Both the position numbers and the translations under genes were made by a program. 42,482 bases of DNA, from assembly GCA_027002375.1 (NCBI GenBank), contig JALWZX010000060.1:1-42482 (forward strand), given 5' to 3'. This DNA comes from a candidate division WWE3 bacterium. Lineage in GTDB: Bacteria > Patescibacteriota > WWE3 > 2-01-FULL-39-13. The notes under the pieces are model-generated. The model was not told the DNA's origin and did no database searches. It saw only the letters and a list, made by a program, of their open reading frames with translations. Below, piece after piece: positions 13,367-42,481 of this stretch. Numbering within the stretch: the stretch's first letter is position 1; every line of letters starts with the position of its first letter.

Positions 13367-13801
13367 ATGCCAACAATAAATCAATTAATAAGAAAAGGTA
13401 GAAAAAGAAAACCAAGAAAACCAAAGACAAGAGCGTTGTCTGTAATGTTCAACGCAAAAAAACGTGAATATGTTAAGGTGTATTCACCTTTTAAGAGAGG
13501 TGTTTGTACAAGTGTTAGAACAACCACACCTAGAAAGCCAAATTCTGCTTTGCGAAAAGTGGCTAGAGTTAGATTTTCAAACGGTCGTGAAGTAACAGCT
13601 TACATTCCTGGTGAGGGGCACAATCTACAAGAGCACTCTGTAGTTTTGGTAAGAGGTGGTAGAGTTAAAGATTTAGCTGGTGTAAGATATACAATTGTTA
13701 GAGGTACATATGATTTACAAGGTGTTGAAGGTAGAAAAAACAGTAGATCAAGATATGGTACTAAAAAGAGTTCATCAGCTGGTTCGGAAACTGCCGAGTA
13801 A
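13367..13801 (+). CDS. rpsL: 30S ribosomal protein S12
   Basis: [53 protein letters not shown]. Confidence 0.97.
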
Positions 13802-13913
13802 AACACCGACAGTTTACGCTGTTGGCGTTTTGCCTTTATCTCGCCAAGGCGAGTTCGGCTACGCCGAAATAACTTTATCTGATTGTTTACACAATCAGCA
13901 GTTATGAAAAGTA
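13797..13913. repeat. 117-nt intergenic repeat, copy A (multi-hairpin)
   Basis: Gapless alignment with 15175-15291 (100/117 identical by eye); contains CTGATTGT-TTAC-ACAATCAG, TTCGGC-TAC-GCCGAA and CTCGCC-AA-GGCGAG. Confidence 0.8.
13801..13831 (+). terminator. Terminator-like hairpin after rpsL
   Basis: AAACACCGACAG-TTTACG-CTGTTGGCGTTT then T; one A-C mismatch; part of repeat copy A. Confidence 0.45.
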
Positions 13914-15174: not shown

Positions 15175-15291
15175 AGTAAAACATCGGCATTTTACGCAGT
15201 TGGTATTTTGCATTTATTTCCCTAAAGTGAGTTCGGTTACGCTGAAACAATTTCATCTGATTGTTTACACAATCAGCAGTTATGAAAAGTA
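15175..15291. repeat. 117-nt intergenic repeat, copy B
   Basis: Gapless alignment with 13797-13913; the right-most ~37 nt are identical. Confidence 0.8.
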
Positions 15292-18080: not shown

Positions 18081-18166
18081 TAATGCTCACTGCGTTCGCA
18101 TTATCATTTGTTATTCACTTCGTTCATAACATCCTGTAATGCTCACTGCGTTCGCATTATCATTTG
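18081..18166. repeat. Direct-repeat pair of a 30-nt hairpin sequence
   Basis: TAATGCTCACTGCGTTCGCATTATCATTTG at 18081-18110 and 18137-18166; each folds TAATGC/GCATTA; spacer carries GTTATTCACTTCGTTCATAAC. Confidence 0.85.
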
Positions 18167-38333: not shown

Positions 38334-38375
38334 AGTATACAAATTATATGGCACATACTTGTCATTCGACCTTAT

Positions 38376-38425
38376 ATAGTAATTAGCAATAAGGAACCCC
38401 GAGCTTTAACTCGTGGAGTTTCATT
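38376..38425. repeat. REP-like hairpin repeat, degenerate copy
   Basis: 43/50 identical, gapless, to 42387-42436; core CCCCGAGCTTTAACTCGTGGAGTTTCATT. Confidence 0.75.
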
Positions 38426-41803: not shown

Positions 41804-42481
41804 TTAATAATTTGTAGACTTGAGGTTAAGTTCGTATATTAATATACTTTCTCTGTTGGTAGAAGTTTTAGCTACGATGGTTCCATATGGGTCAACTATC
41901 ATTGTTTCACCTATGCTAGTTGTAACAAAAACTTTTTCAGACTTTGTTCTTATGGTTTGTTTGTCTGCATAATTTACATACAGAAAGTAACAACGGTTTT
42001 CTATTGCTCTAGCTCTTGTCAATGTCTGAACAATGTTCGTCTCAATATTTTTTGGAACATATTTTTTATATATGTAACTATCTTCATGCGACCATAATGA
42101 TATGTTAATAATCATGTTTATATCTTTTGAATATTTGCTAGATAACGATGGGGAATTTAAATCTGCGCATATTTGAATTGCAACTAAATTATTATTAAAT
42201 GCAACAAATTCTAATTTATCAGTATTGTCATTACTTAGAACTCTCTTTTCGTCTGCCCATAAATGATTCTTATAATACCAGTGAAGAATCTCTCCATTCC
42301 AATCGACAAAACAAGTTGAATTATAATATTTATTATCGCCAAACTTAAAACCACGCACTTTAGTGCGTGGATGGAGTTGGTCAACAATAGTAATTGGCGA
42401 TAAGAAACCACGGGCTTTAGCCCGTGGAGTTTCATTATTCTCTTTAAGAATAAAACTTCCAGGAATAATGTTTATCTTACG
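41804..42481 (-). CDS. Carbon-nitrogen hydrolase (nitrilase) family protein, 5' end beyond the window
   Basis: Frame stays open from the edge (RKINIIPGSFILKENN...) to the TAA at 41804; KYYNSTCFVDWNGEILHWYYKNHLW, VAIQICADLNSP, NISLWSHEDS; ORF-track start GTG 42358 is an artifact. Confidence 0.75.
   Translation of the reverse strand, partial: RKINIIPGSFILKENNETPRAKARGFLSPITIVDQLHPRTKVRGFKFGDNKYYNSTCFVDWNGEILHWYYKNHLWADEKRVLSNDNTDKLEFVAFNNNLVAIQICADLNSPSLSSKYSKDINMIINISLWSHEDSYIYKKYVPKNIETNIVQTLTRARAIENRCYFLYVNYADKQTIRTKSEKVFVTTSIGETMIVDPYGTIVAKTSTNRESILIYELNLKSTNY
42332..42438. mobile_element. REP/IS200-like double-hairpin element flanked by ATTAT direct repeats, inside a coding sequence
   Basis: ATTAT at 42332-42336 and 42434-42438; hairpins CCACGCAC-TTTA-GTGCGTGG and CCACGGGC-TTTA-GCCCGTGG; inverted repeat TATCGCCAA/TTGGCGATA. 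Confidence 0.75.

Follow-up and report, generated by a model that had tools for sequence, protein, structure and literature searches.

A 102-nt palindromic element, very probably of the transposase-less IS200/IS605 type, in frame in a nitrilase-family gene and other genes of a candidate division WWE3 bacterium

A nitrilase-family gene at the edge of a contig from a candidate division WWE3 bacterium carries two perfect hairpins within its coding sequence, which raises the question of what this insert is, how it came to lie in a gene and what becomes of the encoded protein. The stretch of DNA analysed, referred to here as the window, is 42,482 nt long and is the whole of contig C60 of a draft genome of 811 kb in 77 contigs that is 76% complete; the gene is cut by the contig edge and its 5′ part is therefore absent. 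The preliminary description of this locus had noted a minus-strand frame open through both TTTA-loop hairpins, and translation together with the PF00795 match bears this out: the frame is uninterrupted from 42481, the contig edge, to 41804 and reads IPGSFILKENN-ETPRAKARGFLSPITIVDQLHPRTKVRGFKFGDN-KYYNSTCFVDWNGE, in which ETPRAKARGFLSPITIVDQLHPRTKVRGFKFGDN is the element-encoded part (Table 1). The proposal that these 34 residues are an insertion agrees with homologues that lack the region and with a CN_hydrolase match that becomes longer and rises from 72.5 to 76.8 bits once they are removed, and what is left after deletion is, as had been suggested, a normal-looking nitrilase with an improved PF00795 value (Table 1). 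Relatives of the nitrilase were found neither in genome_contigs nor in 96 related genomes, so that an empty nitrilase site is not directly demonstrable, and structure prediction of the protein from its single sequence is uninformative (mean pLDDT 31).

Table 1. Features of the element and its surroundings in the window (positions are those of the 42,482-nt stretch)
Feature	Position	Strand	Basis or remark
Nitrilase-family (CN_hydrolase) gene	41804..42481	-	PF00795 4.5e-20; 2.2e-21 with insert left out; 5′ end cut by contig edge
34 extra residues in nitrilase-family protein (ETPRAKARGFLSPITIVDQLHPRTKVRGFKFGDN)	42334..42435	-	Open frame across element
Mobile element, 102 nt	42334..42435	+ (transposition "top strand": TATCGCC...GTTTCAT)	Ends common to about 33 nhmmer-aligned copies; tandem copies C8 and C11 join TCAT/TATCGCC directly
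TTAT, target / left cleavage site C_L, host DNA	42330..42333	+	Conserved at -4 to -1; T at 42329, the fifth base, likewise favoured
AAAA, left guide G_L, 5′ foot of left hairpin	42347..42350	+	Fits TTAT by IS608 rule
Left-end hairpin CCACGCAC-TTTA-GTGCGTGG	42351..42370	+	Perfect; hairpin pattern and fold
GAAA, right guide G_R, 5′ foot of right hairpin	42404..42407	+	Fits TCAT by IS608 rule
Right-end hairpin CCACGGGC-TTTA-GCCCGTGG	42408..42427	+	Perfect; hairpin pattern and fold
TCAT, right cleavage site C_R, element's last four bases	42432..42435	+	Copy alignment
Degenerate right half of another copy, intergenic	38374..38424	+	nhmmer E=3.4e-8; between rpsI and aldo/keto-reductase-like ORF (gene names by inspection)

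Read on the minus strand, the hairpins are CCACGGGC-TAAA-GCCCGTGG and CCACGCAC-TAAA-GTGCGTGG, both perfect, and the single-stranded DNA fold of the segment has z = -8.1 versus shuffles. A subterminal palindrome is present at either end and terminal inverted repeats are absent. The two ATTAT sequences described earlier, at 42332-42336 and 42434-42438 and 102 nt apart, are indeed there and consist of target plus element end, TTAT/TAT at one junction and TCAT/TAT at the other. Their interpretation as a target-site duplication is rejected because each straddles a junction, with an element half that is common to other copies. A classical DDE-type MITE is ruled out, as both terminal inverted repeats and a target-site duplication are absent. 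We first took the unit to be 105 nt long, with ATAATAAA at its end and WAT as its target; this parse was dropped, since two tandem copies and the guide rule described below fit the 102-nt unit.

Other copies of the insert, as anticipated for a mobile element, are present elsewhere in the genome. The 811-kb draft contains about 33 full or near-full copies that are 78-100% identical, and a profile search of the stretches fetched around the copies returns 33 nhmmer matches at E<1e-20 in addition to many fragments; boundaries and copies were analysed in these stretches. The hairpin pattern, with up to two mismatches allowed, has 56 forward matches versus 0 in the reversed control. With these two counts and the z-score of the fold, repeat and hairpins are not due to chance. 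The youngest copies are mostly 102 nt long and many older ones 101 nt. The element is absent from the 96 related genomes, except for hairpin-sized matches in two, and its exact 3′-end pattern has no match in public genome and viral contig collections, the source genome possibly lying outside those scans.

The boundaries of the copies give access to the mode of insertion. Turned so that the loops read TTTA, copies have the form TTTAT/TATCGCCAAACTTAAAA-(hairpin)-...-GGCGATAAGAAA-(hairpin)-AGTTTCAT/W. Conservation of the TTAT target at positions -4 to -1 is 100, 100, 91 and 100%, with T at -5 in 94% and none further out, and in each of 30 copies the element is followed by A or T at +1, where conservation ends. 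Across about 30 copies, insertion is 3′ of TTAT, which is retained in the left flank, and no target duplication is seen. At C8 and C11 a newer copy stands directly before an older one (TCAT/TATCGCC), a junction consistent with exact reuse of the older copy's TTAT. IS608 also inserts 3′ of a target kept in the left flank, shares a +1 preference with ISDra2, and places its guides 5′ of the hairpin feet, pairing G_L AAAG with C_L TTAC and G_R GAAT with C_R TCAA (PMC5934647). In our own reading of the published sets, guide base 1 corresponds to position -3, base 2 to -4 and base 4 to -1. By this rule the guides AAAA and GAAA of the present element predict TTxT and TCxT, and the actual TTAT and TCAT fit at both ends, a match that was noticed post hoc in an A-rich region. 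The TTAT strand has positive GC skew at 26 of the 33 copies and on 19 of 24 contigs, compared with 0.49-0.55 across all sites of this kind (p = 0.014 by contig, moderate statistics). Such a strand, which by its GC skew we take to be the lagging-strand template, is the one used by IS200/IS605-type elements, and the TTAT strand here tends to be this template.

The insert is very probably a copy of a transposase-less IS200/IS605-type element (PATE/MITE-like, 102 nt), moved by a Y1 TnpA in trans and with in-frame copies surviving in genes; judged from sequence features, the mover is most probably an IS200/IS605-type single-strand transposase. In the proposed route, a Y1 HUH transposase (TnpA) acting in trans would bind both subterminal hairpins on single-stranded DNA, and base-pairing of the guides at the hairpin feet, AAAA with the left target TTAT and GAAA with TCAT at the right end, would allow the element to be cut out as a single-stranded circle. 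Reintegration of the circle would take place 3′ of another TTAT, mostly on the lagging-strand template, and leave no target duplication. As the sequence shows, the length is divisible by three and, of the five frames that are usable, three are open, so that the intragenic insertions that survive are in frame. They add 34 residues at a tolerated loop, leader peptide or interdomain linker, and in a further frame insertion onto a stop codon changes TAA to TGA.

Mobilisation in trans by a TnpA/RAYT enzyme, with REP or IS200/IS605-like ends, had already been suggested in the preliminary description. The Y1 type of enzyme is backed by the guide/cleavage code, the target, the lack of duplication and the strand bias, and the ends fit IS200/IS605 (TnpA) better than a REP/RAYT unit; the corresponding gene was not found, as neither Y1_Tnp (PF01797) nor the TnpB C-terminal domain (PF07282) is detected in the 76%-complete assembly. 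Y1_Tnp is found in 45 of the 97 genomes of the relatives set, and two of the IS200-type tnpA loci fetched from relatives end in TTTA-loop hairpins. In one relative (G081, locus L134), the hairpin CCACGG-CTTTAG-CCGTGG, near-identical to the right-end hairpin, follows an IS200-type tnpA at a distance of 13 nt.

Two other ways of moving are set against these features. Under the first, the element would be a REP/REPIN-type palindrome dispersed by a domesticated RAYT (TnpA-REP); in keeping with this, it has paired hairpins, a high copy number and a tetranucleotide at the foot of the hairpin, Y1 proteins the size of a RAYT are common among relatives, and a paired-hairpin repeat of the relative G075 has the same CTAAAG core. 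This origin is nonetheless very unlikely, as the guides are AAAA and GAAA rather than GTAG-like, left and right ends are distinct and have matched cleavage sites and a fixed insertion target, the element is found inside genes and not extragenically only, and a RAYT was not found in the 76%-complete assembly. A coding repeat resembling the Rickettsia palindromic elements and moved by a non-Y1 route would account for palindromes of about 100 nt in frame in several unrelated genes and for an assembly in which a transposase was not found, but such a route is highly improbable, given that the element has the target, the guide/cleavage pairing, the +1 preference and the strand bias of Y1 elements.

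For the Y1-mobilised element favoured here, near-complete in-frame copies are located in seven recognisable genes, encoding the nitrilase in the window (C60), OGG/HhH-GPD (C64), a GT4 glycosyltransferase (C22), a MurG-like GT28 (C75, a contig that starts in the element), DUF6624 (C35), a prepilin-like leader (C69) and MnmA (C71). A VKOR-like protein (C73, named from its sequence) holds a right-half fragment. Removal of the insert betters the Pfam match in four of the five cases tested, with increases from 29.0 to 34.0 bits for OGG_N, from 17.0 to 22.6 bits for N_methyl and from 69.7 to 73.1 bits for DUF6624, in which the profile start moves from 43 to 2; the GT4 scores are almost unchanged because the insert sits between the two domains. 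In MnmA the loop that carries the insert has 86 residues, 34 of them from the element, versus 24-53 in relatives, and it is short in solved MnmA sequences too.

We infer that the 34-residue peptide would be translated and retained in the host proteins, with GFLSPITIVDQLHPR as an expected tryptic peptide. The proteins would instead be unchanged if the insert were spliced from the mRNA, as a mini-intron or IStron-like unit, or skipped by the ribosome, which would be compatible with the mobility proposed above. The hairpins are strong, and IStrons, which combine an IS with a group I intron, are known. Diverged genic copies hold frame and length, one of them by compensating indels, which would be needless under splicing or skipping, and together with the short length and the lack of an Rfam match this makes the idea even less probable than a non-Y1 route. 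An IStron or group I intron as such is ruled out, 102 nt being far shorter than a group I intron and no Rfam match being found around a longer copy. The least probable reading is an assembly artefact in which the repeat has fused halves of unrelated genes; several contigs, including C75 and C41, do begin within the element, so the repeat breaks the assembly, but on either side of the insert OGG, GT4, DUF6624, MnmA and the nitrilase match one and the same protein family, with the two parts correctly ordered, which is unexpected from random joins.

The reading frame of the Y1-type element itself bears on its tolerance in genes. Besides a length divisible by three, it has three open frames among the five that are usable, a number of open frames that mono-nucleotide shuffles reach in 1.4% (measured post hoc). 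Counted over the target sites within long ORFs, the three open frames are available at 486:499:233, whereas the genes use them 5:0:2, so that the hydrophobic frame is avoided. Among copies of <95% identity, all three in genes keep a length divisible by three and an open frame, compared with one of 14 diverged copies outside genes that has either of the same two frames open and such a length; these are few copies, and genes disrupted by an insert may have escaped detection. The DUF6624 copy has regained its length via a compensating indel. Four further copies (C1, C40, C42, C65) end upstream ORFs of 115-492 residues with the element's own TGA and replace the TAA of the target by TGA, which for C1 is deduced, the old TAA being no longer there. 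Selection of the element for safety inside genes, as the multiple-of-three length, open frames, rewriting of stop codons and the 102-nt young versus 101-nt old copies might suggest, is a tentative and rather doubtful proposition. If true, it would describe a protein-coding transposon that succeeds in a gene-dense minimal genome via tolerable 34-residue inserts, some of them perhaps functional.

Other repeats were noticed in this genome and its relatives. Longer relatives of the element at L089, L090, L091, L092 and L099 (C64, C29, C7, C26 and C45, respectively) have about 110 or more extra internal bases, which hold further stems (TGATGATA...TATCATCA and ATCACTGAT...ATCAGTGAT). No intact tnpA is seen within these longer copies, most of which add only about 110 nt. 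As longer copies exist, the 102-nt form may be their internal-deletion derivative. A second hairpin family at L098 and L105 (C19 and C11:69449), CAGTGAACTGCCACGCACTAAAGTACGTGGCTTACATTAGAAAATA(T/G)TCGCATAATTACATTATGCGA, has the same CTAAAG loop and is maybe another IS200-like non-autonomous element. Within the window, a perfect 30-nt direct repeat, TAATGCTCACTGCGTTCGCATTATCATTTG, occurs at 18081-18166 as two copies that flank a similar TTATTCACTTCGTTCATAA hairpin at a spacing of 56 nt and is absent from the other fetched loci, and a 117-nt direct repeat, 85% identical, occupies 13797-13913 and 15175-15291. Among the relatives, AAATGAAACTCGCACGGGCTAAAGCCCGTGGTCTC lies between two ORFs resembling halves of one gene (L106, G036:C15:3036) and constitutes a related single-hairpin insertion, and G075, which belongs to another family of the phylum, has on two contigs (L107, L108) a similar double-hairpin repeat in which CCCCGGGCTAAAGCCCGGGG and CCACGGGCTAAAGCCCGTGG are separated by about 40 nt.

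The combination of traits places the element close to several known systems. It resembles IS608 and ISDra2 in having subterminal hairpins with guide tetranucleotides at their feet, in inserting 3′ of a short, fixed target that stays in the left flank and in its +1 preference (PMC5934647), and also in its use of the lagging strand, but it lacks internal tnpA/tnpB and has the target TTAT instead of TTAC/TTGAT. REP/BIME/REPIN sequences with RAYT are likewise many-copy hairpins with a foot tetranucleotide; here, in contrast, the guides are not GTAG-like, copies are genic too, left and right ends are defined and a RAYT was not found in the assembly. The PATEs of Haloquadratum walsbyi are IS605-related and are mobile in a genome whose IS200-type transposase genes are almost all broken; like the present element, they have near-terminal palindromes, no terminal inverted repeats or target duplication, and are too short for a transposase (PMC3119063). 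The differences from PATEs are a bacterial host of about 0.8 Mb, a uniform 102-nt unit, in-frame positions in several conserved genes and readable guide/cleavage pairs. Rickettsia palindromic elements are palindromic repeats of about 150 bp with an open frame that occur in frame in unrelated genes (Ogata 2000, reviewed in PMC10969869). The likeness to these is one of behaviour, namely in-frame insertion in several unrelated protein genes, here seven, and the difference is the readable IS200/IS605 transposition code. How Rickettsia palindromic elements are mobilised is, to our knowledge, unexplained.

In this genome the element behaves as Rickettsia palindromic elements behave in their own hosts, and an in-frame palindromic behaviour that was until now a Rickettsia curiosity is seen in another minimal genome together with an IS200/IS605 guide code. 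This makes testable both how such elements move and how often transposons seed protein segments in gene-dense genomes, and the related peptides in a tRNA thiolase, a DNA glycosylase, glycosyltransferases and a prepilin leader provide a natural experiment.
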